Origin: Fibrobacteraceae bacterium
Lineage (GTDB): Bacteria; Fibrobacterota; Fibrobacteria; Fibrobacterales; Fibrobacteraceae
Assembly (NCBI GenBank): GCA_017631885.1
Contig: JAGBSH010000005.1
Coordinates: forward strand, 1 to 64,000
Length of the DNA stretch: 64,000 nucleotides
Reading direction: 5' to 3'
Part shown: one piece after another, positions 7,194 through 53,217 of the stretch
Layout of the letters: every line of letters starts with the position of its first letter
Numbering within the stretch: position 1 is the stretch's first letter
Translations under genes and position numbers: made by a program
Notes under the pieces: model-generated
The model's input: the letters and a program-made list of their open reading frames with translations, nothing else
Databases searched by the model: none
Told to the model about the DNA's origin: nothing

Positions 7194-7203
7194 AAACTAC
7201 CTA

Positions 7204-9018: not shown

Positions 9019-9022
9019 ATTT

Positions 9023-11941
9023 TTACTTTCTGAAAACGTTACTATACAACAATTTTGAATTTACTTTTACTTTCACAACATACATGCCTTTAGGAAGTAT
9101 TCCATCTTCAAGAGAAACGGAATTTTCTCCAGCAAAGACATTTTTAGAAAGTCCAAAACGCATTACACCATTCATATCGTAGAAATAAATTTCCGCAAGC
9201 CCAGATTTTGGAGTAAATAAAATTCCTGAAACTGGATTATAGAAAATATTATGTTTCACTACTTTTGATGGAACGCTATTTAATTGATCGGCATAAATTT
9301 CAACGCCATCAATATCAAAATAGAACATATCAACATTTGCTCCGCCATCAGCAACAATTGATTTTAAAGTAAGCGTATTCAAACCTTTTTGCAAATCTAT
9401 TTTCAATTCAGTAGTCTGCCATGTTGTCCAATTGGTTGTAGACGGCATTTCTAATTCGCCTATTTCTTTACCATTTACAACAAGAAGCATATTCCTTGCA
9501 GACGTTCCGCCATTTGCATACCGCACTGTAATCGTTGTTGTTGCAGTGTATTTAGAATACAAGTTCCATGTTCCATAACTCGCATCTGTATTTTCAAAGT
9601 TATAGTAGCCATTTTCTAAGAATCCCGTATTTGTATTTTCACTCCAACCAGCGCCAGCAACAGGTGTAGACGCGTCTATTTTAGAAGCTTCTTCTTTGGT
9701 TTCTACATTTTCTTTAGTCGCATCAGGGTTTACAACTGAAATCAAACCATTCATAGACGCCGCTTCGCCATCACCGCCTTCAGTTACAACAGTAAATTGG
9801 AACAAACCAACCTCTGTCGGAGTGCCAGAAATAGTAATCGTCTTTGCACTTTCATCTACTTTTGCAGAAACACCTTTTGGAAGCCCGTTTACTTTTGCAC
9901 TTTCAGCAAACATAAAGTTATAAGTAATTGCGTCAATACTTGTATTCACCAAAACGCTCTGGTTATCAAGACCATTTCCTACTTTATTAAGACTTGGTGG
10001 CGGGTAAACCACATCGCCATTAGCACCGACAGCATAAATATCAGGCTTTTTAAGATTTTTCACCATATCTGGCAAGTAATAACCTAAATGCGGTGGCTGA
10101 TTATAAGCCACATTTTGCCATGCAATTGCTGTACGATAAACGGCATCATGCATAAGCGTGTAAACTCTATAAGGGGAAACAACCGGAGTGCCCACAATAT
10201 AAAGTACAGTTGGGTCTGTTGAAGAGCGGACCACTAATTCTTCTCGCCAATCGCCAAAAACATCAGCCACAAGGCTTGGCGTATTTTTAGTTCCATTACA
10301 ACCTGTTGCGCTTAAAGCTGTAGGTCCATCAAAATAAGTTTCTGATTTCTTTTCTTTTGAATTAAATTTTGTTACAAAAGCTCCGTCCAAAAGTTCATCT
10401 TGCAAATCGCCATCGAAATAAATGCGGAAATTAGTAGAAACAGCAGGCGTTCCGATAAACTCTCCTTTTACCGTGTGCATGCCACCACCTTTACTTGACC
10501 AAGTTTCAAAACCTCGATAAGTTGAATCAATATCAGCAGCCATACCTCGGCCATTATCCACACCAGGATTGGGTTGTAAAGTTCCCCAAATAATAGAACC
10601 ATCATGAGCGCGCAATTCATCTGTATATTGAGCGTCTTTATGTTCATGAACATCCCAATATTCAAGCCCTGGTCTATCTGGGTCCATATCAGAAAGATGG
10701 TGTGCATCTCCATGGCCTAAACGTGTTGAATAACGCAAAGTACCATCGTGATTTAAAGCCGCAGCACCAAAAACGATTTCATCATAGCCATCGCCATCAA
10801 GGTCTCCTATTGCTATTCCATGGTTCCCTTCACCATAAAGACCTTTACCCGGGTCTTCTGACTTATGAAGCCAACGCAATTTCAAATCTTTTCCATCAAA
10901 ATCATAAGCGGCCACATAAGCAGAAGTATAATACCCTCTGACAAAAATAGCGCTCGGGTGTACCCCATCTAAATAAGCGGTTGCAGACAGATAACGTTCA
11001 CAACGGTTTCCATAAGCATCACCCCAAGAACCTTTGGCATCTACTTTTTCATGTTTATTAATATTACGACTTGGTTGGTATTCTACTGTAGTTATTGCAC
11101 TACCATCAATTCCTCTGAAAACGGTTAAATATTCCGGACCATCTAAAATTATTCCCGCATCACTACGATAATCTTTAGATTTATCACCAATTACTTTGCC
11201 TGTACCATCAACAGTTCCGTCAGCTGTTTTTACAATCATTTCAGCTTTGCCATCACCATCATAGTCAAACGCCTGAAATTGGGTATAATGAGCACCAGCG
11301 CGAATATTTTTCCCTAAATCAATACGCCAAAGACGAGAACCATTCAATTTGTAAGCATCTATAAATACAGTCCCGGTATAACCTGTTTGAGAATTATCAT
11401 GAGCATTAGAAGGGTCCCACTTTAAAATCAATTCATATTCACCATCACCATCTAAATCTGCTGTACTCATGTCATTTGGAGTATAAGTACAAGTAGAGCC
11501 ATCTGGCATTGTCTGTGTTGCAGGAACTTCAAGCTTTATCGTTTTATAGGGGAAAGAATTTCCATTAGTGAGAATTGTTTTATCAAGAACAACAGCTACA
11601 TTTTCTGCTTTACTTTCTTTTCCATTCACTATTGCTGTAACCGTGTATTCAGAATCTATTGAGCCACTTTTATCTAAATAATTTGTACCAGCCGTTTTTG
11701 CAATAGAAGCTATTTTTACACCATCGCGATACAAATTGAATTCAGTATCCGGGCTTTCTGTTCCAAGCAAACGCCAAGAAACAAGCATTCCATTTCCGAC
11801 ATTGGAAATGGCTAAGCCTCGAGAAATTTTTTCCATCTGTTTTGTTGCTCCAAACGAAGGCTCAACACCAAAAAGCACAGACGTTGCTAAAAAGGCACAA
11901 AACAGACCTTTTTTTGAGTTCTCTTTTAAGAAGATACCCAT
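9023..11941 (-). CDS. Secreted PL11 rhamnogalacturonan lyase with CBM and sorting domain
   Basis: This 972-aa protein cleaves the rhamnogalacturonan I backbone by beta-elimination, judging by its family. It has a signal peptide, then the PL11 N-terminal block (MEKISRGLAIS, LVSWRLLGTESPDTEFNLY) and an eight-bladed propeller with repeated calcium-type motifs (DLDGDGEYE, DYDGDGKAEM, GDLDGDGYDE). This is followed by an Ig-like putative domain (LPKGVSAKV, about 690-755), a CBM35/6-like module (about 780-900, GGANVDMFYFD) and a sorting tail (IYFYDMNGVMRFG). ATG 11941 is preferred over 11959 because GGAG sits five bases upstream. It is the first gene of the operon with the two esterases, which makes the locus a rhamnogalacturonan-I unit. 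Two overlapping palindromes lie about 65-90 bases upstream. Confidence 0.9.
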   Translation of the reverse strand: MGIFLKENSKKGLFCAFLATSVLFGVEPSFGATKQMEKISRGLAISNVGNGMLVSWRLLGTESPDTEFNLYRDGVKIASIAKTAGTNYLDKSGSIDSEYTVTAIVNGKESKAENVAVVLDKTILTNGNSFPYKTIKLEVPATQTMPDGSTCTYTPNDMSTADLDGDGEYELILKWDPSNAHDNSQTGYTGTVFIDAYKLNGSRLWRIDLGKNIRAGAHYTQFQAFDYDGDGKAEMIVKTADGTVDGTGKVIGDKSKDYRSDAGIILDGPEYLTVFRGIDGSAITTVEYQPSRNINKHEKVDAKGSWGDAYGNRCERYLSATAYLDGVHPSAIFVRGYYTSAYVAAYDFDGKDLKLRWLHKSEDPGKGLYGEGNHGIAIGDLDGDGYDEIVFGAAALNHDGTLRYSTRLGHGDAHHLSDMDPDRPGLEYWDVHEHKDAQYTDELRAHDGSIIWGTLQPNPGVDNGRGMAADIDSTYRGFETWSSKGGGMHTVKGEFIGTPAVSTNFRIYFDGDLQDELLDGAFVTKFNSKEKKSETYFDGPTALSATGCNGTKNTPSLVADVFGDWREELVVRSSTDPTVLYIVGTPVVSPYRVYTLMHDAVYRTAIAWQNVAYNQPPHLGYYLPDMVKNLKKPDIYAVGANGDVVYPPPSLNKVGNGLDNQSVLVNTSIDAITYNFMFAESAKVNGLPKGVSAKVDESAKTITISGTPTEVGLFQFTVVTEGGDGEAASMNGLISVVNPDATKENVETKEEASKIDASTPVAGAGWSENTNTGFLENGYYNFENTDASYGTWNLYSKYTATTTITVRYANGGTSARNMLLVVNGKEIGELEMPSTTNWTTWQTTELKIDLQKGLNTLTLKSIVADGGANVDMFYFDIDGVEIYADQLNSVPSKVVKHNIFYNPVSGILFTPKSGLAEIYFYDMNGVMRFGLSKNVFAGENSVSLEDGILPKGMYVVKVKVNSKLLYSNVFRK

Positions 11942-39095: not shown

Positions 39096-39377
39096 TTAAC
39101 CATACATTTTATGGATTCTACTGCTAGGCGGGTAGAATTTATAATTCCAGGCATGTCCGCCACTTGTTGCTGTATATGTTTTATGATTTTCCAAAATAGC
39201 AACAGCACAACGATCGTCGTCATCTAAATCTAAAGCAATTATTGACGAACTGAATGTCTTTGCTCTCTGCCATGTCGTTCCGCCTTGGTACAATTTAGAA
39301 GCCCATTGAATTTCTCTATCATCGTCTGGATTAATTCTTAAATACACCCTATTTTTTTCATCATAAACTACTTGCAT
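39096..39377 (-). CDS. Small unknown protein
   Basis: I do not recognise this 93-aa soluble protein. It is acidic in the middle (LDLDDDDRCAV) and rich in Tyr and aromatics at the end (GGHAWNYKFYPPSSR). I set the start at ATG 39377, with GAGGG five bases upstream; the frame stays open upstream to 39434. It has its own terminator and lies between cel51A and dut, transcribed in the same direction as dut. Confidence 0.6.
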   Translation of the reverse strand: MQVVYDEKNRVYLRINPDDDREIQWASKLYQGGTTWQRAKTFSSSIIALDLDDDDRCAVAILENHKTYTATSGGHAWNYKFYPPSSRIHKMYG

Positions 39378-39497
39378 AAAAACCCTCATAACCTCGCACA
39401 ATTTACGACAGAATAGGTGTACGAGAAAGCCCAATCTACCAAAGCTATCTTTATGAAAACTTCCTAATGAATATATCTTTTTTTATTCAAAAAAACT

Positions 39498-39935
39498 TTA
39501 AAAAGTTCCTGTACTTCCAAATCCGCCACGATTTTTATTTTCTAATACAGTTTCTTCAAATTGAATTTTAGGCTGGTTTTCCATAATCCGGAATTGAGCG
39601 ATACGACTCCCTTTTTCAATAGTCACATCGCGAGTCGCATAAACAGGCATTTTCCACCAATCATTTGCACCACAATAACTAGAATCTACCACACCAACAG
39701 AATTAGTTTGTAAAATTCCAAAATTCTTGAAAGTCGAACTGCGAGGCGCAAGGTGCGCTTCAAAACCTTCCGGAAGTTTCATAGCCACACCCAAATGAAT
39801 AAGCTTAAACTCCCCTGCTTTCAAAACAACTGTTTCCGCTGCCGCAAGGTCAATCCAATCCGATTTGCCATCTACATAGCAAAGCTTTGGAATAGAATCA
39901 TCAAGGTACTGAATTTTTATTGTCTGTGAACTCAT
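39498..39935 (-). CDS. dut: dUTP diphosphatase
   Basis: This 145-aa trimeric-type dUTPase hydrolyses dUTP to dUMP and keeps uracil out of DNA. The conserved motifs appear in order: DLAAAE, APRSSTFKNFGI, GVVDSSYCG (the catalytic Asp region), GSRIAQFRI and the C-terminal NRGGFGSTG arm that closes over the site. The nearby sequence TATATTT lies only a few bases before the ATG. Confidence 0.93.
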   Translation of the reverse strand: MSSQTIKIQYLDDSIPKLCYVDGKSDWIDLAAAETVVLKAGEFKLIHLGVAMKLPEGFEAHLAPRSSTFKNFGILQTNSVGVVDSSYCGANDWWKMPVYATRDVTIEKGSRIAQFRIMENQPKIQFEETVLENKNRGGFGSTGTF

Positions 39936-40123: not shown

Positions 40124-40309
40124 TCAAAGAATAAATACTTGGAGCTTTTGTGTTACATGTAATTTCTGCGTGGCCCCGTCTAAATCATCTACAAATTCAA
40201 AATCACTGTAAAATTTACAGAATTTACCTATTTTATAAAACTTTGAATATTTTAGTAAACATCCTTTAAACGCTCTAATTACAAACAGTTTAAATTCTTT
40301 TTCAGCCAT
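40124..40309 (-). CDS. Possible small ORF at the end of the restriction locus
   Basis: A 61-aa basic frame starts five bases after the STAS/HATPase gene, with AAAGGAT about 11 bases before its ATG. It has no recognisable domain and many Lys and Phe residues. It may be a small partner gene, the remains of a longer one, or chance. Position in the operon is the only support. Confidence 0.3.
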   Translation of the reverse strand: MAEKEFKLFVIRAFKGCLLKYSKFYKIGKFCKFYSDFEFVDDLDGATQKLHVTQKLQVFIL

Positions 40310-40314
40310 ACTTT

Positions 40315-41298
40315 TTAAATATCCTTTGTACTGGTAGATGCTTTTCCGTAAATCCCTAATTGTTGAGAAAGGCGTTCCCCCTCGTTAATAATATCTTGTA
40401 TTTGCGTTCGATTTCTTAGCAAGCTACTATATCTAAAATTTATGCCAACAAATGTTCCTGGATAGCAACCTTCGTAAACTTTAACACCCTGGTGATTTAT
40501 CTTCAGCATTTTGCTACAACTTCCAATCCACATATACCCAAAACGTTCTGCAATTTTTGATAGCACATACAAACCAAAGCCACTATTATCATATTTACCA
40601 CTATTTTTTACCGATTCACTTGTAATACCTGGAAGAATCGCATTTTTCAAAGCCCATTCATCATCTATTTGTTCACCATACTTTTCTGATAGTGAATTAC
40701 GAATTCCTCTTCCTGAATCAGCAATACAAATTTCCACTTCATCGCGCTTTGGATAAATCTGTCCAAATACCGAACAATATAAACAACCTGTATGCTCAAA
40801 AACATTTCGAATAATTTCTCGGAAACAATATGAAAATACAGGCTCCACCTTATCGAACATCCATTGAGAATAATTATCCGAGCACATTTCAATGGCGTCT
40901 TGAAGCAGATAATCTTTACGACCATTTAACTTTTCATCATATACAAGACTAAGCAAATTACTTTTCTCTAAAATTCCCATGGGTACATAGGTCTTATTCG
41001 TTGGCACCTGCACAGCCTGCGGAGGATTTTCCCCCAAAAACTTGAAAAAGCCTACATACTCCAAATAGGAAATTGGATTCGTGTGAGTATCGGAACTTAT
41101 AAATTTTAAAATTCTCGCTCTAGAATCCTTATTGTATTTCAAATATTGCGCAAACACCAATGATCCAATGGGATACGCAATTCTTAAATCAGAAAAATCA
41201 ACTGTTATTTCAGAATCACATCCATCATATGATTCAATTTGAAGAATCAATTTGCCAATAGTATACTCGCTCAAACCAGACGGAACTTTTATATACAT
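40315..41298 (-). CDS. STAS-like and GHKL ATPase protein
   Basis: This 327-aa soluble protein has an N-terminal STAS-like half (about 1-125; VDFSDLRIAYPIGSLVFAQYL resembles a STAS core) and a GHKL-type ATP-binding half (about 150-300). The ATPase boxes are all present: REIIRNVFEHTG (N box, Asn 165), IADSGRGIRNSL (G1, Asp 194) and SGFGLYVLSKI (G2). There is no HTH, receiver or membrane segment. It sits 24 bases after hsdS in the same direction, so it is probably cotranscribed with the restriction genes. Its role could be regulatory or a separate defence function; the fold is the only firm statement. Confidence 0.75.
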   Translation of the reverse strand: MYIKVPSGLSEYTIGKLILQIESYDGCDSEITVDFSDLRIAYPIGSLVFAQYLKYNKDSRARILKFISSDTHTNPISYLEYVGFFKFLGENPPQAVQVPTNKTYVPMGILEKSNLLSLVYDEKLNGRKDYLLQDAIEMCSDNYSQWMFDKVEPVFSYCFREIIRNVFEHTGCLYCSVFGQIYPKRDEVEICIADSGRGIRNSLSEKYGEQIDDEWALKNAILPGITSESVKNSGKYDNSGFGLYVLSKIAERFGYMWIGSCSKMLKINHQGVKVYEGCYPGTFVGINFRYSSLLRNRTQIQDIINEGERLSQQLGIYGKASTSTKDI

Positions 41299-41322
41299 TT
41301 TTTCTCCAACCCCTTTTCCATC

Positions 41323-42588
41323 CTACACTTCTATTTGGCCGGTCATGAGGAGCGGGAGGAGGGTGTTGCGTTGAGTTGTTAAGGCTTCGATTTGCTTTGC
41401 GTTAAAAAGTTGTTTTTTTATAAGGGGTGCTACTTGAGCATTAAATTTTTCAACAGTCTTTAGATTAGGGAAAAACCACATTGTATCAACAAACTGATCT
41501 AACTGAAAATTTTTTATCCCACTAGTTTTACCTTCAAAATTGAAAAATATTCCATTATCATAAAACATTTTCCACATAAAAGAAATATAATACGCATACT
41601 GAGGATTTTTCATCGTAATTGCTTGGCAAAAGTTCGAACATATTAGTTTATTATCGAACATTTCCAACAATTCCTTCGTCATAAGCCTGGAACGGCCAGT
41701 GGATTGCGTAGGGCTTCCACCAGAAATTTCAACAACTAAATCAAATTCTTGAAGAAGTCTTGATGAATTCTTTGCCAGAATATAGCGAATAGGCAAATCA
41801 GTCATTTTATCAATATCTGCACCCCTAATACAAGAAACCCGAAGATTATAATTCTTTTCAGGATTTTCTTTGCCCCAGTCGCCCCCCTTATTTTCCTTTA
41901 TATAATTGCCAATTGTACAAACTTCCCAACCTACAGGAATGTTGCGGTTGAGGGTTTTGTTGTAGGTGGTTTGGTGGCCGGCGCATTGGAGGAAGGTGTA
42001 GTCGTAGATTGTCTTGGCGGTTTGTTCCAACACGCGATTCTGGGCACGGAGATTTTCTATACGTTGGTCAAAATCAGAAAGCACGTCGCCTATTTTCTTT
42101 TGAACATTCAAACTAGGCAACATGATTGGCATATCTTCCATCGTCGATACTGCAAGAGTGAATCGCATTCCGCTTCCGGTTGCATTCAGCTCAAAATACT
42201 TTTTAATGTAATCGGAACTCATAAATGCGTTCAAATACTTGCCGTAAACAATTTTCTCATTTGGCTTTGCCAAAGCACAATGGTAGCCAAGAACAACATC
42301 ATCAAAATCATCGGCGATGTAAGTCGAAATCCCTATATCATCACGAGTTTCGCTATCTTTAGTAAATGCAACAAAACCCTTCTTTAAAGAAAGTTTATTT
42401 ATGTTGCTATCGCTTGCAGACGCAACCATAAACGAATCATAATCCGACTGTTTAATTGCCCAATTGTGGTAAACATCGGTAAAATTACAAAGCCTTACAA
42501 TCTTTTCGCCCGGCTTTGTTTTCTTATCAACACTACTGATTACAATTTCAGCAATATCACCCAGCTTATATTTCTTCATTTCGACCAT
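41323..42588 (-). CDS. hsdS: Type I restriction specificity subunit HsdS
   Basis: This 421-aa protein carries two target-recognition domains: TRD1 (about 5-165) starting at KKYKLGDIAEIV and TRD2 (about 215-370) starting at PVGWEVCTIGNYI. Each is followed by a helix that spaces the half sites, in QKKIGDVLSDFDQRIENLRAQN and PLIKKQLFNAKQIEALTTQRNTLLPLLMTGQIEV. The DNA target cannot be predicted from sequence. ATG 42588 with AAGGGG upstream is preferred to the start at 42645. It is separated from hsdM by the AlbA_2 gene, which is not the classic order. Confidence 0.9.
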   Translation of the reverse strand: MVEMKKYKLGDIAEIVISSVDKKTKPGEKIVRLCNFTDVYHNWAIKQSDYDSFMVASASDSNINKLSLKKGFVAFTKDSETRDDIGISTYIADDFDDVVLGYHCALAKPNEKIVYGKYLNAFMSSDYIKKYFELNATGSGMRFTLAVSTMEDMPIMLPSLNVQKKIGDVLSDFDQRIENLRAQNRVLEQTAKTIYDYTFLQCAGHQTTYNKTLNRNIPVGWEVCTIGNYIKENKGGDWGKENPEKNYNLRVSCIRGADIDKMTDLPIRYILAKNSSRLLQEFDLVVEISGGSPTQSTGRSRLMTKELLEMFDNKLICSNFCQAITMKNPQYAYYISFMWKMFYDNGIFFNFEGKTSGIKNFQLDQFVDTMWFFPNLKTVEKFNAQVAPLIKKQLFNAKQIEALTTQRNTLLPLLMTGQIEV

Positions 42589-42693
42589 CAACCACCCCTT
42601 ATTTTGCGACGCTCTGGATGACATGGTAGGAGAATGACAACGCAACGAATGCTCTTGTATAATGCGACGGTTTCTTGTCTAATTTCACATTTT

Positions 42694-44025
42694 TCATTCG
42701 TTCACCTCCCAATGGCCACTATAGCCGCTTCCCTTATATTTTATATGACTCAACTTTGCGATATGGCGTTTAATCGTAATGACACTTTTCCCACTCTTTT
42801 TAGCTAGTTCTTCTGTTGTAATTTTAGGATTTTTCTTTATCTGTTCTTCAATCCAATCATCAAAAGCTTTTTCTTGAGTATCAGCTTGAGTATCAGCTTG
42901 GGTATCATCTTGAGTATCATTTTGGGAGTTTTCTAGTTCAAACTCAAAAGGAATTGTAACACGCAAAAAGAAGTCCAAAAACTCAAAAACCGTTTTCCCG
43001 TAGCGTCTGGTTACAAGCGGTATGCCGTAGCCAGTCTGCTCCATCAAATCCAAGCGAATGAAAAGCTTAGCTAGTTCCTCATTCACTGGTTTTGAAACGC
43101 CACGAAAAAAATCCTCTTTTGAAAGATTTGCAGGAAGTCCACCCGTAGAAATAATTTCTATCCTATCTGTATAGGCATAGATTGCGGGTGGAGTTCCATC
43201 TGCCCAGTTGTTGTGCAAACATGCGTTAAACCAGACTTCTCGAAACGCATCGCAGTCAAAAAGTTTTTTGTCTTTGCGAACGCCCTTTGTGAAGCTTGTG
43301 TGAGTTTCGTTTATAACATCAATGCAATAATCGAAAGCCTGCTTCATGGCTATCACAAGACACTTTTCACCATATTCATTTCTGAGCGCGATTCCGTCTG
43401 CTTTTTCTTTGCCTTTAAAACGCACAACTTTTATTGAAGTTTCATTTTTGTCGGCAAGCAATTCTGCCATTTTGTTGTAGTCACCGTCTTTTGTGAGCAA
43501 ATGAAAATTTTCTGCAAAGGTTGTTTCATTTATGGAAAATCCTTTTTCTGTAAGCAAAAGTTTTAGATATTGAAACGTCAGATTTTTTGCCCGAATTGGA
43601 ATTTCTGTGATTTTTACTTTTGAATCTAGATATTTATTATAAACAATATTGATTTGTTCTTCGGTCATTGAACGACAGGTTGTGCCGATACGAACAAAAC
43701 AACCCTGTGCGCTTCTGCCGTATTTCTTTATGTAATAAAGGCTTTTGCCTTTTCTAACCTTTATTTCAATGATATGCTTGTTTTCAATGAACTTTGTGCC
43801 GAGTTCAATAAAATGTGATGAATTAGGCAGAATTTGGCTTTCTATCATATCCGCAATTTTTTTGAGGGATTCGTCAAGATTTTTTACGCCAGAGACAGAG
43901 CCTCCATCATCAACACCGATATATATCGTTCCTCCGTCCGTGTTCAAAAAGGCAACAATTTCTTTTGGAAGAGCATCTGTGAGTTTTTGTTTTAATTCTA
44001 TCTTCTCAGTTTCTGCAAAAGTCAT
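42694..44025 (-). CDS. AlbA_2/Schlafen-type putative DNA-binding protein inside the hsd operon
   Basis: This 443-aa protein begins with an AlbA_2 (Schlafen AAA-type) domain: IELKQKL, EIVAFLNTDGGTIYIGVDD and the RIGTTCRSMTEE block. The middle (about 240-350) has the C-terminal regulator-type core seen in predicted transcriptional regulators (FREVWFNACLHN, YAYTDRIEIISTGGLP, EQTGYGIPLVTRRYG). A repeated Asp-Thr-Gln-Ala segment (369-384) leads into a winged helix (about 400-443). It reads as a DNA-binding regulator, and such genes often sit in restriction loci. ATG 44025 with GGAG upstream is preferred to TTG 44046. Confidence 0.8.
   Translation of the reverse strand: MTFAETEKIELKQKLTDALPKEIVAFLNTDGGTIYIGVDDGGSVSGVKNLDESLKKIADMIESQILPNSSHFIELGTKFIENKHIIEIKVRKGKSLYYIKKYGRSAQGCFVRIGTTCRSMTEEQINIVYNKYLDSKVKITEIPIRAKNLTFQYLKLLLTEKGFSINETTFAENFHLLTKDGDYNKMAELLADKNETSIKVVRFKGKEKADGIALRNEYGEKCLVIAMKQAFDYCIDVINETHTSFTKGVRKDKKLFDCDAFREVWFNACLHNNWADGTPPAIYAYTDRIEIISTGGLPANLSKEDFFRGVSKPVNEELAKLFIRLDLMEQTGYGIPLVTRRYGKTVFEFLDFFLRVTIPFEFELENSQNDTQDDTQADTQADTQEKAFDDWIEEQIKKNPKITTEELAKKSGKSVITIKRHIAKLSHIKYKGSGYSGHWEVNE
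42873..42920 (-). repeat. Four in-frame 12-bp repeats coding Asp-Thr-Gln-X
   Basis: Units at 42873-42884, 42885-42896, 42897-42908 and 42909-42920 differ by one or two bases (forward strand CTTGAGTATCAG and variants). The length is a multiple of three, so unit gain or loss would change the linker length and leave the frame intact. Confidence 0.9.
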
Positions 44026-44104
44026 CTTTCCGTTCTCCGTTTTCAATTTTCATCAAGTCTATTACCTTCGCGATATTCCGAAAGAACCTCTTTTTCAAAA
44101 TCCT

Positions 44105-45757
44105 TCATATCCTCATTCCCTTGAGGTTCTTCATAATTTGGGCGTCAAGTTTGGCACCTTCGGCAGAAAGGTTTTCCAGTTCCTTGGCAAAGCCCTTTAT
44201 CTTGGCCTTGAATTCCTCGGGGGTGATTTCCACATATTCGACCTTAATGTCAAAATATTGGCCGGCGCTCAGGCTGTAGCCCTTTTCCCTGATATCCTTG
44301 TAAGTCACAGCAACAGAAAAATCTTCAACCGTCTTCTTTTTACGGAAGGTGGTCACAATCTTCTCGATTTCTTCGGGGCGTAAGCGACGCTTTTGGTTGT
44401 TACCTTCCTTGTATTCTTCGCCAAGCTTACTGGCATCAATCAAAATAACCTTGTCGGAATCTTTCTTGGGCGATTTGTCGAAGAACAGCACCGAAACGTT
44501 TGTTCCTGTATTCGCAAACACGTTACTCGGCATACTGACCACACCGCTAATGATATGCTTATCGGTAATGTATTCCAGAATTTTCTTTTCAACACCGGAC
44601 TTGCTTGTAATAAAGCCGGTCGGAATAACGATTGCGCCCCTGCCTTCAGCCTTTATGGAATTAATCACATGCTGAATAAAGCAAGTGTAAATAGCCATCT
44701 TGGGCTTATTAGGGTCAATTTTCTTTACCTTGTTGGGAATACCAGCCCAAAAGCGGACACTGTCTGCCGCCAAGGTATCGGAATACTCAGGGAAGTCAAG
44801 CTTGAACGGAGGATTACTTACCACAAAGTCAAACTTCTTGAGGCTTCCATCCTTTTCTACATGGCTGGGTTCCAAAAGGGTGTTCCCTTGCACCACATTA
44901 GGCAAGCTGCCCACCAGATTGTTCAAAATCAAGTTCAAGCGCAGCATTTCGCTGGACTTGTCTGAAATATCCTGGCTGTAAATAGAACAGCGGTCTTCTC
45001 CTACTTGGTGAGCTAGTGCCATAAGTAGCGTACCGGTACCAGCACTAGGGTCGTAGCAGGTTGCACCCTTATATTCCGTTTCTGGATTCACCAAAAGTTG
45101 AGCCATTACTTGGGCAATGGCACGGGGAGTAAAGTATTCGGCATACTTACCGCCACCGGCATTGTTGTAATCCTTAATCAGATATTCAAAAATGCCGCTG
45201 AAAAAGTCATACTTTTCGTTGAAAACTTCTTCAAAGTTAAATTCCGCGATGTTCTTCACCAAAGCCTTGGCAAATGCATCGCGTTTACCAATATCTGTAA
45301 TATAGGGCGTAACGGCAGCAAAAATATTCACCTTCGCCTTGCCCGAAGTCACCACCGAGAACTGGTCCTGGTTATAGGTTGCGATATCCACCAAAGTAGA
45401 ATCCAATAAAGCAGAAAAATCGCCCTGAGTTGAAGCATTGTACAAATGGCTCAAAGTCTGGTGCGGCTTGATTAAAGGGATACCTCCGCCCATATAAGAG
45501 AACAAATCCTCGACTTCTTCATCGGTAAAGGAATCGTATTCAACATCCCACTTTTCCGCTTTGCTCAAACGCTTTTTGTAAGGAGTCTTTTGATTCTTGG
45601 CTTCAAAGGCAAACTTGTCATTAAAGAACTTGTAAAGGAATATCTCGGTAATAATCTTGTATTCGTTACCACCATTTGCAAGGCCATACGCACCAGTCGT
45701 ACTTTTAAGGGAATCAATAAGGGCTATGGTTTTGGCTTTGAGTTCTTCGGTGTTCAT
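44105..45757 (-). CDS. hsdM: Type I restriction modification subunit HsdM (N6-adenine methyltransferase)
   Basis: This 550-aa methyltransferase has an HsdM N-terminal helical domain and the SAM motif DPSAGTGTLLMAL (about 233-245), then the catalytic NPPF (about 312-315). It methylates the HsdS target. The stop of hsdR and its ATG abut with no gap, so the two are coupled. Its C-terminal coiled region (LENLSAEGAKLDAQIMKNL) joins HsdS. GC content and codon use look somewhat higher than in the nuo genes, as might be expected of an acquired island (impression, not computed). Confidence 0.95.
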   Translation of the reverse strand: MNTEELKAKTIALIDSLKSTTGAYGLANGGNEYKIITEIFLYKFFNDKFAFEAKNQKTPYKKRLSKAEKWDVEYDSFTDEEVEDLFSYMGGGIPLIKPHQTLSHLYNASTQGDFSALLDSTLVDIATYNQDQFSVVTSGKAKVNIFAAVTPYITDIGKRDAFAKALVKNIAEFNFEEVFNEKYDFFSGIFEYLIKDYNNAGGGKYAEYFTPRAIAQVMAQLLVNPETEYKGATCYDPSAGTGTLLMALAHQVGEDRCSIYSQDISDKSSEMLRLNLILNNLVGSLPNVVQGNTLLEPSHVEKDGSLKKFDFVVSNPPFKLDFPEYSDTLAADSVRFWAGIPNKVKKIDPNKPKMAIYTCFIQHVINSIKAEGRGAIVIPTGFITSKSGVEKKILEYITDKHIISGVVSMPSNVFANTGTNVSVLFFDKSPKKDSDKVILIDASKLGEEYKEGNNQKRRLRPEEIEKIVTTFRKKKTVEDFSVAVTYKDIREKGYSLSAGQYFDIKVEYVEITPEEFKAKIKGFAKELENLSAEGAKLDAQIMKNLKGMRI

Positions 45758-48700
45758 TTACACTCCATAACTATTATACTGGTTGATGTATTCATTAGAA
45801 ATCAGATTGCTAATGAATTTACGGTCATCAAGACTTGCGGTCAAATCAAGGTCCATGAACTTGTGGCTTACACAACCCAAAATATCCTTACGGAGTTTGT
45901 CTTCGTTTTCCACAATTCCCGGATTCTTTTCAAACAGGTCATCGGCAGAGTCCTTGATTTCGATAAGGCTTTTCTGGATTTCGAATTCTTCTTTAGAAAG
46001 CAAGGGTCTTTCCTTCTTTTCGCCAAATGTGCGCTTTGCGTTTTCTTCTACAATTCGCTTGTGGATGCGGACAAAGCGCTCATCGTTCTTGTAATGAGAC
46101 TTTAGCACACGGTTCCTGCGGTTGATTTCCTTGATTTTGGACATCACGTCTTTCAAGTAAAAAATGCTGTCTTCGGCTTCGGATTTATCTTTAGGAATAT
46201 AACCATGTTCCCTAAAATACTTTCGGAATTCTTCAATAAGGTTGACAAACTTGTCTTCTTTCTTATCGAAGTTGGCATCAAATTCGGCACGAACCTTTTC
46301 GGCTTCTTCCCTAAGGCTATTGATGATAATCTTGAGTTCTTCTGAAATACCCTTACGGAATTCAAAATCAAGACTATCAAGAATGGCGTTAATCATGCCA
46401 GAGACATCTTCGCTGTGGTCTTTGCCTTCCTTGAAGTTTATGGTTGCAATGCGGCGTTCCACTTCACGCAACAAAACGGGAATACCGCCAGGCAACATGT
46501 TCTTATACTTATCCTGCAACTCTTCATTGCCACTAGAACGAATTCTGTTACCCAGACCCTTTGCATTTTCAAGAATTTTACGAAGGCGGTACAGAGGTTC
46601 CTTGTCTTCAATTTCATCAATAACTTCGCGGAATTCCTCATAATTCTCGGTAGGAAAATTCCACAAGAAATCCGTCAATTCATTAATCTGCTGTTTGACT
46701 TCTTCGGGATTTTCAATAATTACCTGACCCGGGTTTGTCAAACGGTCTTGATCGGTATTTTCCGTGGTCTTATTCAGTTCCCGCAGATAACGGTCATTGG
46801 TGGCATCAAAGTTTTCCTTAATGTCAACAAAGTCCACCACATAGCCGTACTTAAAATCCTTATACGGTCGATTAACACGAGTCAGCGCCTGTAGCAAATC
46901 GTGACCATCGAGTTTGCGGCCAAGATACAACTTTTTCAAACGGTTTGCATCAAAACCCGTAAGCAGCATTTTGTTGACAATCAAAAAGTCTGTAACCATG
47001 TTCTTTTTGTAATCATCAATATAATTATCGCGTTCCTTCTTATCGCCTTCATCATGAAGAATTAGGGACGCCTTCAATGGCTTTTCAAAGAAAGAAGCGT
47101 TATAATGCATCAGGTTATCAGCCGCCATTGTCGCAAATTCTTTTTTCTTCTTTTCAATAATACTTGTTGCGAAATTGTAGCGTTCGTTCCACAACTCAAA
47201 AAGCTTACGAGCCTGGTTGTTGGTCTTGCAAACAATCATAGCACCGATTGAATTGTCTTTAAATCCATTGCGAAACGAAGTAAAATCATCGATAATATAA
47301 TCTAACAGGGCGTTCAAATACCTAGGATGCTCAATGATAGTATCCTTATCAATGTCGCTCTTTTTGACTCGAATCTGGTTTGCCGAATTGTTTTCAAGTT
47401 CATCAAGTATCCCTTGCAATTTTTCTTTATAGTGCGTTTCAATCGGTTCACGCATCAACTTGAGCGTATAGCCATCGGCAATCGACTTATCGTAATAGTA
47501 AGTGTGAATGTAATCGCCAAATACGCGCCAAGATTCACGTTCTTCTCGGAGCAACGGAGTTCCAGTAAGAGCTAATTTCACTGCATGCTTGTCTGCACTT
47601 AAAAGGTTTGCGAGGAAAGCGCCTTCAGGGTTGTAGCCACGATGTGCTTCGTCAATAAAGAACACCCGTTGCAAGTTTGTGTTGTAGCCAGCAGAAATAT
47701 CCACGGGAGCCTTATCTTCAGCAAACTTCTGAATGTTCACCACGGTGATTTCCAACCTTCCATCGGCACTCTTTACTAGTTGTGTATTCTTGATATCTGC
47801 CATGAGCTGAACACGATCTTCAACGGTATGCACAACAAGGCCACGAGCCACAAATTCATCGCGAGCCTGCTTCATCAAATCAATTCGGTCAACAATGAAA
47901 TAGAACTTGGCGGGAATGGACTTTTTCGCAAAATAATCAGTAAGACTCTTGACTGAGTAATACGCCAAAGCCGTCTTGCCCGAACCCTGCGTATGCCAAA
48001 TAATTCCACTATTTATGCCCTCATCTAGTTTTTTACGAATTGCAAAAGAGGCAAAAAGTTGCTGGTAACGCATTACATGTTTTTCAAGTGTCTTAATCTT
48101 TTCGCCATTCTCTTTTTCAACAGTCTTTTCCACATAGGCAAAGCCATAACGGAGCAAGAACAAAAAACGTTCCTTGCTCAGCAGCGAGGTCAGAATGCGG
48201 TTCGTGGGAGTATTCACTTTGCAATTCGTGGCATACTCCGGATGACACTTAAGCGAAACACAATTTCTGTGCTTAAGAATCAGTTTTTCTGTATCTTCTG
48301 AAACATTCTGATACGGATACTTTTGGCCGAACTTTTCATCTTCTTCGCGGAATACATTGAAAAATGCTTCTTCCTTACCGATGCAGGCGTAGAACGCCCC
48401 CTGGACAGGAACTCGATTTGCATTGTCGTATTCCTGATTGTTGCTGAAAATCATCAGTTGAGTGATGTTCAGAAAGCGCCTAAAACTTTTGTTAGGTAAA
48501 CGGTTCTGGTTAGTACGGCTCTGCTCGGCAACAATGCCTTCTGCATTATTCGGCTTTTTCACTTCGATAAAAGCCAATGGTAAACCATTCACAAAGCACG
48601 TAATGTCTGGGCGGAAGTTATCGCCTGTTTCTTGATTTTCACAAGGGAGTTCCGTCGTCACAAGCCAGCTATTGTTCTCAGGATTTTCAAAATCAATCAG

Positions 48701-48988
48701 CTTGATTCCTGAATTCGAAGAAAGAACTTGATAAAATTCACGGCCAAGATCGTCACTGCTAAGTTTGCTCAGCACAAACTTCGCAAAAATTTCAAGATCA
48801 TGAAATTTTTGTTCAGGATTCAAACGAACGAGGGCTTTAAAGAATTCATCGGTAAGGACGTTGTTGTGCTTATTGAGCCTACCTACCGGAGTTCCTTCGC
48901 CATATTCAGCAAAATAGGCGTAGCCCAAGCGACACAGATGAAGCGCCGCCGGGACCTGAACTCTAGTACATTCGTTAAATCCAGCCAT
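45758..48988 (-). CDS. hsdR: Type I restriction endonuclease subunit HsdR
   Basis: This 1076-aa motor-nuclease has a PD-(D/E)xK-type nuclease domain at the N-terminus (PDITCFVNGLPLAFIEVKK), Walker A HTQGSGKTALAYY (about 330-342), DEAH in FFIDEAHRGYNPEG (about 440-455), TGTPL and the helicase motif LLTGFDANRLKKLYL. The C-terminal helical part joins HsdM. It is the first gene of the island, and all the hsd genes read the same way. No sign of truncation or frameshift was seen. Confidence 0.95.
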   Translation of the reverse strand: MAGFNECTRVQVPAALHLCRLGYAYFAEYGEGTPVGRLNKHNNVLTDEFFKALVRLNPEQKFHDLEIFAKFVLSKLSSDDLGREFYQVLSSNSGIKLIDFENPENNSWLVTTELPCENQETGDNFRPDITCFVNGLPLAFIEVKKPNNAEGIVAEQSRTNQNRLPNKSFRRFLNITQLMIFSNNQEYDNANRVPVQGAFYACIGKEEAFFNVFREEDEKFGQKYPYQNVSEDTEKLILKHRNCVSLKCHPEYATNCKVNTPTNRILTSLLSKERFLFLLRYGFAYVEKTVEKENGEKIKTLEKHVMRYQQLFASFAIRKKLDEGINSGIIWHTQGSGKTALAYYSVKSLTDYFAKKSIPAKFYFIVDRIDLMKQARDEFVARGLVVHTVEDRVQLMADIKNTQLVKSADGRLEITVVNIQKFAEDKAPVDISAGYNTNLQRVFFIDEAHRGYNPEGAFLANLLSADKHAVKLALTGTPLLREERESWRVFGDYIHTYYYDKSIADGYTLKLMREPIETHYKEKLQGILDELENNSANQIRVKKSDIDKDTIIEHPRYLNALLDYIIDDFTSFRNGFKDNSIGAMIVCKTNNQARKLFELWNERYNFATSIIEKKKKEFATMAADNLMHYNASFFEKPLKASLILHDEGDKKERDNYIDDYKKNMVTDFLIVNKMLLTGFDANRLKKLYLGRKLDGHDLLQALTRVNRPYKDFKYGYVVDFVDIKENFDATNDRYLRELNKTTENTDQDRLTNPGQVIIENPEEVKQQINELTDFLWNFPTENYEEFREVIDEIEDKEPLYRLRKILENAKGLGNRIRSSGNEELQDKYKNMLPGGIPVLLREVERRIATINFKEGKDHSEDVSGMINAILDSLDFEFRKGISEELKIIINSLREEAEKVRAEFDANFDKKEDKFVNLIEEFRKYFREHGYIPKDKSEAEDSIFYLKDVMSKIKEINRRNRVLKSHYKNDERFVRIHKRIVEENAKRTFGEKKERPLLSKEEFEIQKSLIEIKDSADDLFEKNPGIVENEDKLRKDILGCVSHKFMDLDLTASLDDRKFISNLISNEYINQYNSYGV

Positions 48989-49251: not shown

Positions 49252-52200
49252 TTACCCCACAAAAATTCGGCCATTGCGGAATAGTTGCATCCATGGGCCA
49301 AATTCGTTTGTCCATTCTGCTGGGTGCCAAGAATATTGGCAAGTACGGAACACACGTTCTGGGTGTGGCATCATAATCATTGCACGGCCATCTTCTGAAC
49401 AAAGACCAGTCATGCCATAAACAGAACCATTCGGGTTCAATGGATAACGTTCGGTATAGTTGTGATTTCCATCTACATAGCGTAAAGAAACCAAACCAGA
49501 TTCTAAACATTTTTTTGCCATATCTGCATTTGCAAATTCTACACGGCCTTCACCATGAGCAACTGCTATTGGCAATACAGAACCAGCCATTCCTTTTAAA
49601 AGAACTGCAGGCGTATCTTCTACTTTCAAGCTACAGAAACGTGCTTCAAAGCGTTCAGAAAGGTTCTGCACAAAGCGAGGCCAATGAGAAGCTCCTGGAA
49701 TGAGTTCTTTTAAATTAGAAACCATCTGGCAACCATTGCAAACGCCTAGCGTGAAAGTGTCTTTACGGTGGAAGAAGTTTTCAAATTCTGTTCTTGCTGA
49801 AGCATTAAAGAGAATGCTCTTTGCCCAGCCTTCGCCAGCACCTAAAACGTCACCATAGCTAAAGCCACCGCAAGCGACAAGGCCTTGGAAATCCTTCAAA
49901 GAAACTCGACCAGATAAAATATCTGTCATGTGAACATCAATGGATTCAAAACCGGCTTTATTGAAAGCGGCTGCCATTTCTACTTCACCATTTACACCTT
50001 GTTCACGAAGAATTGCCATTTTCGGACGACTTTCGTAATCGTGCTTTACAGAAATATCAAAGGTTACCTTTGGAGTAATTCCTGGGTCAGATTCTTCAAG
50101 TTTTAATGTGTATTCACTTTCAGCACATTCCGGATTGTCACGAAGTGCTGAAATACGGCGAGTGGTATCACTCCAAATAGCACGCAAATCAGAAAGATTT
50201 TCAGCGTAATTTCCGATACGGAATTCATAAGTATCGTTTAATGTTCCAATATCAGAAACACATTCTTTTAAGCCGACATTTTCAAATGCCGAAAGAACTG
50301 CACTTACATTTTCTGTAGCTACTTGTAAAACAGCACCAAGTTCTTCGTTAAAGAGAATTTCTAATTCAGAGCCAGCGAGTTTTGAAATATCAAGAGTTAC
50401 ACCAACATGACCTGCAAAAGCCATTTCTAAGGCTGTGGTATAAAGACCGCCATCAGATTTATCGTGGTATGCAAGGATTTTTCCTTCTGCATTTAATTTC
50501 TGAATGGTTTCAAAGAAAGAACGCAATTCTTTAGCGCTTTCTACATCTGGAGCTTCGGCACCCATTTTGCAGAATACCTGAGCTGCAATTGAAGCACCAA
50601 GACGATTTTTTCCATGGCCTAAATCAACAAGCAACAAACGAGAATCTTTCTTTTGTAATTGCGGAGTCAAAGTTTTCCGAACATCTGCGCAAGGAGCAAA
50701 AGCACTAATTACAAGAGAAATCGGAGCGGTTACACGGTGTTCGCCTGATTCATCGTTCCAAACGGTACTCATGCTCATAGAATCTTTACCAACAGGAATG
50801 GTAATTCCAAGTTCTGGGCAAAGTTCCATACCAATGGCTTCAACGGCTTTATACAAATCTACGCCATCGCCTTCGTAATTTGGTGTTGCCATCCAGTTTG
50901 CTGAAAGGTTCACACGCCCCATTTCTGGAACATAAGCAGCAGCCAAGTTCGTTAAAGATTCGGCTACTGCCATTCTTGCACTTGCTGCCGGGGAAAGAAC
51001 GGCTATCGGAGCGCGTTCCCCCATACTCATGGCTTCACCTTCAAAAGTATCAAGCGTTGCAGAAGTTACAGCGCAATCAGCTACAGGAACTTGCCATGGG
51101 CCAACCATTTGGTCTCTACAAATCATACCGGTAACCGAACGGTCACCAATAGAAATCAAGAATGTCTTGTCGGCAACAGATGGGTTTGCAAGAACTCGCT
51201 TTGCTACCATTGAAATGTCTGTTCCTTCTGGGAAAATTTCATTTTCAACTGGACGAGTACGGCTTACTTCGTTACGAATCATGCGAGGAGGTTTTCCAAG
51301 CAAGACATCTAACGGCATATCAATTGGCTTGTTTCCAAAATGAGAATCGGTAAGCGTTAAATGTTTTTCTGGAATAGCTTCGCCAACAACTGCATAAGGG
51401 CAACGTTCACGTTTACAAAGAGCGTCAAAAACATCGAGTTTGTCTTTTGCGACTGCTATCACGTAACGTTCTTGAGATTCGTTACTCCAAATTTCAAGAG
51501 GGCTCATGCCTGGTTCATCACAAGGAACTTTGCGGAGTTCAAAATTACCGCCAAGGCCACCATCGTGAACAAGTTCTGGCAATGCGTTTGAAAGGCCACC
51601 AGCACCGACGTCATGAATAAATGAAATTGGGTTTTCGTCATCCATAGCCCAGCAGCGGTCAATCACTTCTTGGCAACGACGTTCCATTTCTGCATTATCA
51701 CGCTGAACACTTGCAAAATCAAGGTCTTCGTTTCCAGAACCACTTGCTACAGAACTTGCAGCCCCACCACCAAGACCAATAAGCATAGCAGGGCCACCAA
51801 GAACAACTAAGTGATCTCCTGGCTCAATATGACCTTTTGCAATATGGTCTTCTTTAATGTTTCCAAGGCCACCTGCAAGCATAATCGGTTTGTGGTAACC
51901 ACGAATTTCTTTGCCACCTTCTTTAGCAACTTCCATTTCAAATGTGCGGAAATAACCTAAAATGTTTGGGCGTCCAAATTCGTTATTGAAAGCAGCACCA
52001 CCAAGCGGACCTTCGATCATAATATCTAAAGGACTAGCAATTCGAGATGGTTTTCCAAAATCTTTTTCCCAAGGTTGAACGGCTCCCGGCAATTTTAAAT
52101 TCGAAACACTAAAGCCAGTTAAGCCAGCCTTTGGTTTAGAACCACGGCCAGTAGCACCTTCATCGCGGATTTCACCACCTGAACCAGTCGCAGCACCTGG

Positions 52201-53115
52201 GAATGGAGAAATAGCTGTTGGGTGGTTATGAGTTTCCACTTTCATTAAAATGTGAACCGGTTCTTCGTGGAAATCATAAGTATTGGTGCGAGGATCTGCA
52301 TAAAAACGTTTAGCGTTTGCTCCACGCATTACCGCAGCATTATCTTTATAAGCAGAGAAAATGTCTGTAGAATGCATTTCATAAGTATTCTTAATCATCT
52401 GGAACAAAGATTTATCCATTTTCTTGCCATCAATGGTCCATTCAGCACCAAAAACTTTATGGCGGCAATGTTCTGAATTGGCTTGAGCAAACATGTAAAG
52501 TTCTACATCGCTTGGGTTACGATTCAAAGCAGTAAAACTCTTAACTAAATAATCAATTTCATCTGGAGCAAGAGCAAGTCCAAGTTCTTTATCAGCTTTT
52601 ACAAGCGCTTCACGACCTTCTGTTAGAACAGGAATTTCATTTAATTTACGCGGTTCTTCTTTACTAAATAAAACAGATAAATCTTCTAACGATTCAAAAA
52701 CACCTTGTGTCATGCGGTCATGGATTTTAGAAGCAACTGCTGTTTTAAATTCTTGTGTTACTTCTTGTTCAAAATGAACATGATAAACAATAACACGTTC
52801 AATACGGCGCACTTTAGAAAGTCCACAAATATGAGCGATATCTGTTGCTTTTGAACTCCATGGGCTAATGGTTCCTGGGCGAGGCGAAACAATAAACATT
52901 GTACCAGAGACTTCTTTTGCTTCACGCTTTGGACCATATTCCAAGAGACGTTTCAAAACTTTTTCTTCGCTTTCTGTAAAACTTTCTGATTCGTCTACAA
53001 TATGATAAAAATCGGCAGAAACTGAAGATACAGGAAGCTTTAACTCTTTTAAATCAGCAAGCATTTTTTGCAACCGAGATTCAGAAAGAGCTGGAGAACC
53101 AGATAAAATAATCAT
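49252..53115 (-). CDS. purL: Phosphoribosylformylglycinamidine synthase, large single-chain form
   Basis: This 1287-aa enzyme makes FGAM from FGAR, glutamine and ATP in purine synthesis. It is the long form with the N-terminal PurS-like region, the synthetase domains ([50 protein letters not shown]-type block) and a C-terminal class I glutaminase with the catalytic Cys in [12 protein letters not shown] and HGEGR, PHPER for the rest of the triad. ATG 53115 is preferred to TTG 53121. The PPTase gene is 102 bases upstream on the same strand, so cotranscription is possible. Confidence 0.97.
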
Positions 53116-53217
53116 AAACAAGACCTATCTAAAGGAATGAATTTTCAAGCGAAAATTTAGAAAATTTCACGAATTTTAAAATATTTTTAACCAATCAAAT
53201 CGCATAAATTTTAAGCT

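Follow-up and report, generated by a model that had tools for sequence, protein, structure and literature searches.

A partnerless, tail-bearing STAS-GHKL protein related to CapK and VapK, encoded after hsdS in a Fibrobacteraceae type I restriction operon

The window (the whole stretch of 64,000 nucleotides that was analyzed) carries a type I restriction-modification (R-M) operon in which hsdS is followed by a gene for a 327-aa STAS-GHKL protein. Judged from its sequence, this protein is related to the CapK and VapK kinases but distinct from them, as it is partnerless and bears a conserved C-terminal tail, which may do the job of the partner protein. CapK and VapK, described in June 2026 (Chambers et al., EMBO J 2026, PMC13373217), are immune kinases activated by ssDNA; they respond to DNA damage and regulate immune operons or toxins, and capKS pairs immediately downstream of R-M systems were counted in 88/443 cases (PMC13373217). 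Our preferred reading, to which we assign a probability of roughly 0.45, is that the gene encodes a partnerless kinase of the CapK/VapK superfamily, carried as exchangeable cargo after hsdS, which would act as an infection- or DNA-damage-responsive Ser/Thr switch by phosphorylating its own tail.

Organization of the locus

The features of the locus are as follows.

49252..53121, minus strand: purL (FGAM synthase; Pfam), one flank of the island
45758..48988, minus strand: hsdR, type I restriction subunit, 1076 aa (HSDR_N 1.5e-27, SWI2_SNF2 7e-39, TIGR00348 8e-82)
44105..45757, minus strand: hsdM, type I methyltransferase, 550 aa (N6_Mtase 4.5e-67, PADLOC MTase_I 7.8e-223)
42694..44046, minus strand: Schlafen AlbA_2 accessory, 450 aa (PF04326 1.7e-21, PF13749 2.2e-13, PF13412 1.1e-5)
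41323..42645, minus strand: hsdS, specificity subunit (Methylase_S 1.7e-13, PADLOC Specificity_I 2.3e-53)
40315..41298, minus strand: STAS-GHKL gene, 327 aa (HATPase_c 3.6e-5, AF2 model, Foldseek, 93-member alignment)
40327..40338, minus strand: codons S321-T322-S323-T324 of that gene, the SxxS/T tail motif (93-homolog alignment)
40124..40309, minus strand: 61-aa ORF of doubtful reality (weak PF18732, HEPN_AbiA_CTD, E=0.0057)
39498..39935, minus strand: dut (dUTPase; PF00692 2.4e-13), the opposite flank

The order hsdR-hsdM-AlbA_2-hsdS-STAS/HATPase given in the preliminary description is borne out by the ORFs, strands and domains, all five genes lying on the minus strand with successive gaps of 0, 58, 48 and 24 bp. 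The genes hsdR, hsdM and hsdS are intact and adjacent, which identifies a type I R-M system. The true start of hsdS is probably the internal ATG near 42588, which is preceded by the ribosome-site-like GGGGTGG. No terminator-like site was found on the minus strand between 48.9 kb and 39.07 kb, which has to be read as mere absence, since such sites are no commoner than in shuffled sequences.

Downstream of the STAS-GHKL gene follow the 61-aa ORF, dut and a 112-aa ORF without a family match. Inclusion of the small ORF as an operon gene is not supported: it lies before position 40,315, where the described region starts, and a search of 168 genomes of the phylum gave no relative. Its single family match is the weak one to HEPN_AbiA_CTD, and a role as HEPN antitoxin or partner was rejected, with zero homologs in the phylum and no blastx support beyond dut.

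The AlbA_2 gene, initially presented as an unusual extra, is a known, common accessory. It encodes SLFN_AlbA_2, HATPase_c_4 (RecG C-terminal-like/GHKL) and wHTH domains, and its distant homologs also adjoin hsdM at six other loci (L192, L196, L199, L200, L201, L217).

Domains and conserved tail of the STAS-GHKL protein

The protein consists of a STAS domain (residues ~1–105), a GHKL domain (~130–290), a C-terminal helix (298–313) and the tail motif A320-S321-T-S-T324. Of the label STAS/HATPase, the second half has a real HATPase_c match (E=3.6e-5), slightly under the Pfam cut-off, while the first rests on structure and homologs, a Pfam search having given no STAS match. The AF2 model (pLDDT 90.4, pTM 0.90) matched SpoIIAB, MutL, RsbV and STAS structures in Foldseek, one half being SpoIIAB-like (1til_E and 1th8_A, prob 0.99 and 0.96) and the other RsbV-like.

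In the alignment of 93 homologs, E161, R164, N165, E168, H169, D194, G196, G198, N238, G240 and G242 are invariant, and the GHKL domain has the N-box Glu and Asn and the G1, G2 and G3 motifs of the SpoIIAB/RsbW-type fold; the ATP site is intact. The STAS domain is degenerate, with Pro at the usual phospho-Ser site, and the protein begins at this domain, lacking the N-terminal HTH of the CapK type. At the ssDNA-contact aromatic of CapK/VapK (W68/F54), the best-aligned residue is L9, in a part where the alignment is uncertain.

The tail motif, [AP]-S-x-x-S/T, is conserved on par with the ATP-site residues: S321 is found in 91/93 and S/T324 in 92/93 homologs, and among 23 representatives with less than 40% mutual identity the counts are 21/23 and 22/23, respectively, the background of the motif being 5%. 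The patterns used to retrieve homologs were the N-box and the G2 box and did not include the tail motif. When genome contigs were searched, a single-sequence query gave no matches and an alignment query retrieved the homologs.

Absence of a partner gene

Neither the STAS-GHKL gene of the window nor those of 97 relatives have a STAS partner gene next to them. Among these partnerless members, the tail is present in 94/97 and a DUF4325 neighbor in 0/97; among VapK-like homologs, 41/47 have an adjacent DUF4325 gene, and only one of those 41 matches the tail motif, by chance. In other relatives, DUF4325 is instead fused to the C-terminus (Nostoc L114, L206; weakly, E=0.0024, L198/L199). Weak matches in the phylum were rejected as orthologs, those inspected being other STAS-GHKL forms (L206, L198 with C-terminal STAS).

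A partner acting in trans is conceivable, since the DUF4325 profile (PF14213) does not detect every CapS-type STAS, Vibrio CapS being one that it missed; against it, PF14213 is absent from the organism's own genome and from 32/39 genomes carrying the family. The phylogeny groups all 93 partnerless members with a support of 0.34, and because this is low we do not claim their monophyly. Members with and without a partner may represent two separate clades, in which case the split between tail and partner could reflect a single ancestral difference.

The slot after hsdS and the neighborhoods of homologs

Eight other genomes of the family have hsdM copies 94–97% identical to that of the window, and in these near-identical hsdRM operons the same slot holds other cargo (DRT, GmrSD, AbiH-like and others), so that the STAS-GHKL gene was rejected as a fixed type I partner. 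A congener (G152) carries a decayed copy of the hsd island with a different cargo remnant, dut (93% identity) at the same site and purL (91% identity) beside it; a copy of the STAS-GHKL gene was sought there and not found. The site after hsdS is a cargo slot with turnover of putative virus-defence genes: one restriction operon can serve as a vehicle that swaps unrelated putative defence genes among close relatives.

Most homologs are stand-alone genes outside recognized defence loci, on plasmids, in prophages or next to housekeeping genes (RNR in L043, FadJ in L064, ribBA in L062). Together with the many unrelated cargos of the slot and the congener without a copy, this would fit a self-sufficient mobile accessory with a role in defence or stress, functionally unconnected to this R-M system, that reached its place after hsdS fortuitously or through insertion at a hotspot. 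We consider this unlikely, though less so than the other alternatives, as a density test found five C5 methylases within ~2 kb of homologs against 0.10–0.17 expected, DISARM drmA-drmB lie beside three homologs (L019, L025, L089), and R-M genes of types I–III beside four (L017, L051, L077, L092). The PADLOC DrmA model PDLC02567 also appears to include an N-terminal STAS-GHKL. In the preliminary description, random association would have meant homologs mostly outside defence loci; this holds in part, yet the enrichment beside methylase-based systems is strong. Two BrxL matches occur in set A7 as a whole.

The best Foldseek E-value belongs to the MutL NTD (9n2k, prob 1.0), and paraMORC-type GHKL ATPases are known neighbors of R-M systems (PMC2292703, PMC8011034), as would suit an ATP-driven effector or DNA clamp, a MutL/MORC-like switch acting on DNA with the neighboring methylase-based system rather than a protein kinase. 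In the AF2 model, however, nothing but the helix and the short tail comes after the GHKL domain, too little to accommodate an S5 domain, the defining feature of MORC/MutL modules; the N-terminal STAS gives the CapK/VapK architecture and SpoIIAB is matched too, which makes a clamp quite improbable. Least probable is a dedicated regulator that modifies HsdR, HsdM or HsdS or their expression, restraining or releasing restriction: the gene shares the operon, 24 bp past hsdS, and capKS follows R-M in the 88/443 cases cited above (PMC13373217), but the eight near-identical operons without it indicate that the hsd enzyme does not need the protein, and none of the genes next to it encodes a DNA-binding partner.

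Proposed function

A sensor, a regulator of restriction and an added defence had been suggested as roles. These point to the right area, as the closest known proteins, CapK and VapK, regulate immune operons or toxins, yet the gene is no constant component of type I systems. In the partnerless-kinase reading, infection or DNA damage would activate a predicted Ser/Thr kinase, in which the GHKL domain would bind ATP and the degenerate STAS domain would be regulatory; the output would be phosphorylation of its own SxxS/T tail, either in cis or inside an oligomer, the tail thereby replacing a separate CapS/VapS as substrate. Precedents are CapK/VapK (PMC13373217) and PrrC in a type I operon (PMC3874165); we count against it the lack of an aromatic at the best-aligned L9, dut rather than an immune operon as the next gene, and the location of most homologs away from recognized defence genes.

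A broader claim, which we regard as doubtful, is that such proteins are a widespread, so far undescribed class of immune kinases encoded by a single STAS-GHKL gene, with the tail having replaced the STAS substrate and with sensor, kinase and switch united in one protein, serving as plug-in cargo beside type I–III R-M, DISARM and possibly BREX. CapK/VapK are defined by a partner substrate, and a large related group without a partner and with a sharply conserved C-terminal motif raises the testable question of whether the tail is the substrate; it also suggests a route by which such kinases could become self-contained.

Comparison with known systems

With VapK of the VapKSC system (PMC13373217; exemplar, the Deinococcus vapK-vapS-vapC locus L118), the protein shares the STAS-GHKL architecture of ~300 aa and the N-box, G1 and G2 motifs, whereas its locus lacks a VapS (STAS/DUF4325) gene and its operon a gene for a VapC (PIN) toxin, and it has an extra C-terminal helix with the SxxS/T tail, the N-box E-x-x-R-N-x-x-E-H and the G2 box N-S-G-x-G-L-Y. 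CapK of CapK-CapS (PMC13373217) is likewise a STAS-GHKL kinase often placed immediately downstream of R-M, but here the HTH is missing, no capS is next and dut follows instead of an immune operon.

The SpoIIAB/RsbW anti-sigma kinases share the GHKL fold and the N-box Glu/Asn, but the protein is fused to its own STAS domain and a sigma-factor context is absent. The GHKL proteins of the paraMORC/HEF_HK kind (PMC2292703, PMC8011034) also occur beside R-M genes, often C5 methylases; unlike them, the protein has an N-terminal STAS, no S5 domain and no HEF_HK Pfam match. The AlbA_2 gene matches the BREX accessories with Schlafen, minimal histidine kinase and wHTH domains (PMC12839542) and differs in its setting within a type I operon. 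Finally, prrC and rlo genes (PMC3874165, PMC2928727) are likewise accessories embedded in type I operons, but the STAS-GHKL gene belongs to another protein family and occupies a slot behind hsdS whose content changes from one close relative to the next.

The hsd operon and its flanks

The genes hsdR, hsdM, Schlafen-AlbA_2, hsdS and the gene of the HATPase protein (hereafter STAS-GHKL) all lie on the minus strand, with intergenic gaps of 0, 58, 48 and 24 bp. ORF calls and family matches bore out the ORFs and domains given for this island in a preliminary description, and the island is real and biologically sensible. A search with the 61-aa ORF after the STAS-GHKL gene yielded no homologue.

49252-53121, purL, one flank of the hsd region
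40315-41298, minus strand, STAS-GHKL gene (327 aa), directly after hsdS
39498-39935, dut, the other flank
39096-39434, 112-aa ORF after dut, without family match
39074-39044, strong terminator-like hairpin beyond the 112-aa ORF

The AlbA_2 gene between hsdM and hsdS is an ordinary accessory. Its product has the Pfam domains Schlafen AlbA_2, HATPase_c_4 and wHTH; six further genomes of the family carry a distant homologue next to hsdM (L192, L196, L199, L200, L201, L217). Fusions of a Schlafen RNase with a minimal histidine kinase and a wHTH have been reported from at least 1017 taxa, in BREX and BREX-related systems (PMC12839542).

Alternative genes follow hsdS

The preliminary description proposed a comparison of hsd loci for conserved neighbours. 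In eight genomes of the same family hsdM is 94-97% identical to the window copy, and in all eight operons the co-directional genes that begin 1-204 bp after hsdS are not the STAS-GHKL gene.

Table. Cargo genes after hsdS in related operons
L187: DRT UG5-nitrilase (PADLOC, E=1e-185)
L191: gene of the same size as that in L187
L188: AbiH-like protein and 1502-aa protein
L189: DUF2806, Mrr-like and GmrSD
L194: GmrSD
L193: AAA ATPase
L192: NOV_C giant protein
L202 (more distant hsdM): Avs2 and PDC-M62A
L198, L199 (more distant hsdM): STAS-GHKL-STAS, AAA and HNH-type set

At the same purL-dut site the congener genome G152 carries a decayed island (L186 = G152:C24:6000-20000, 8050-9150), in which hsdR and hsdM are gone, the SLFN C-terminus is kept at 97% DNA identity, and hsdS, with another target domain, is followed by the first part of a DUF2806-type cargo gene; the STAS-GHKL gene was not found in this island. 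Thus, the STAS-GHKL gene is one of many alternative, exchangeable cargos. The gene does not count as a new part of the type I restriction system; extra genes inside type I operons have older precedents in prrC and the rlo genes (PMC3874165, PMC2928727).

In L198 (5948-7324) and L199 the gene directly after hsdS encodes a STAS-GHKL protein of 459 aa that bears a DUF4325-like STAS at its C-terminus; an AAA ATPase gene and an HNH-type gene come next. Homologous giant proteins (~1500 aa) are encoded after hsdS in L192 (10434-14942, NOV_C-like) and after the STAS-GHKL gene in L065 (9108-13685).

Fold and family of the STAS-GHKL protein

The HATPase match fell just short of the Pfam cut-off (E=3.6e-5), and Pfam gave no match for the STAS half. 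An AlphaFold model was built from 59 aligned sequences (mean pLDDT 90.4, pTM 0.90). In the structure search with it, SpoIIAB and MutL matched the C-terminal half, and anti-sigma-factor antagonists, RsbV and SulP STAS domains matched the N-terminal half, so the STAS plus GHKL architecture proposed from the sequence is right.

The alignment query retrieved 80 genome loci and 19 viral-contig loci of a partnerless family, that is, without an adjacent STAS substrate gene; with plasmid and phage matches added, there were 93 distinct full-length homologues from Proteobacteria, Firmicutes, Verrucomicrobia, Chlorobi and others. Their median pairwise identity is 33%, and all 14 invariant residues are in or near the ATP site. 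The usual STAS phosphorylation site is proline (Pro43) in 96% of them.

Genomic neighbours

The neighbourhood comparison found no fixed partner gene beside the partnerless genes. HsdR adjoins the STAS-GHKL gene in L017 and L051, a C5 methylase in L033, L043 and L052, an N6/N4 methylase in L077 and L092, and DISARM drmA-drmB in L019 (PADLOC, E=4e-199 and 9e-73), L025 and L089 (protein clustering); other genes take this position in further genomes, and two BrxL proteins were among the scanned neighbours. A methylase, R-M or DISARM gene lies within ~3 kb in at least 15 of 74 dereplicated loci, and a C5 methylase within ~2 kb in 5 of 39 versus 0.10-0.17 expected from the same genomes. The remaining loci are stand-alone, several of them in prophages or plasmids or next to housekeeping genes. 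Hence the suggested association with other defence genes is real but not obligatory, most members being stand-alone.

In the three DISARM-like loci the gene is directly 3' of drmB, and an N-terminal STAS-GHKL seems to be part of PDLC02567, the PADLOC model for DrmA. Overlapping AAA ATPase, STAS-GHKL and DUF6638 genes form an operon in Rhodobacterales (L073, L081, L082, ~6035-10435).

A conserved tail and the partner gene

The C-terminal SxxS/T tail is the feature of the protein most deserving a test. Of the 93 homologues, retrieved with patterns that did not include the tail, 98% have S321 and 99% have S/T324; among 23 representatives with <40% mutual identity the counts are 21 and 22, respectively. 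The chance level is 5-6% of neighbouring proteins (last 45-60 residues).

When VapK-like proteins served as a second query, 62 viral loci were retrieved. A DUF4325 (PF14213) gene is directly 3' of 41 of 47 distinct VapK-like kinases, mostly with overlaps of 7-16 bp. Only one of these 41 kinases matches the tail motif, by chance, and most end in a short acidic tail, whereas the motif is present in 94 of 97 partnerless members, none of which has a DUF4325 neighbour. PF14213 was not found in the window protein's own genome or in 32 of 39 other host genomes of the partnerless family. Some relatives have a C-terminally fused DUF4325/STAS domain (clear in L114 and L206; E=0.0024 in L198/L199), and therefore the tail position is elsewhere held by a substrate-type domain. 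These sequence comparisons suggest, but do not prove, that the tail of the partnerless members is the substrate. Since the partnered and partnerless groups may be two clades, the contrast does not represent many independent events.

Comparison with CapK and VapK

Close architectural relatives, the immune kinases CapK and VapK, were described in one paper (PMC13373217). CapK (HTH-STAS-GHKL) is activated by ssDNA and phosphorylates CapS; VapK (STAS-GHKL) was proposed to phosphorylate VapS, with release of the VapC toxin; 88 of 443 capKS are directly downstream of R-M systems (PMC13373217). Our exemplars were named from architecture and gene order, not from accession matches to that paper: capK-capS (L116, Vibrio plasmid), capK-capS-ThiF (L115, Cytobacillus), vapK-vapS-vapC (L118, Deinococcus) and VapK+DUF4325 pairs (Hymenobacter and streptococcal phage). 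In the Vibrio plasmid (L116:5608-12519) a methyltransferase is upstream of capK-capS, and HsdR is close by. The exemplars have a partner gene, whereas the window protein has none, and the ATP-site motifs are common to both; judged by its sequence, the STAS-GHKL gene appears to be a partnerless variant of the CapK/VapK kind of kinase.
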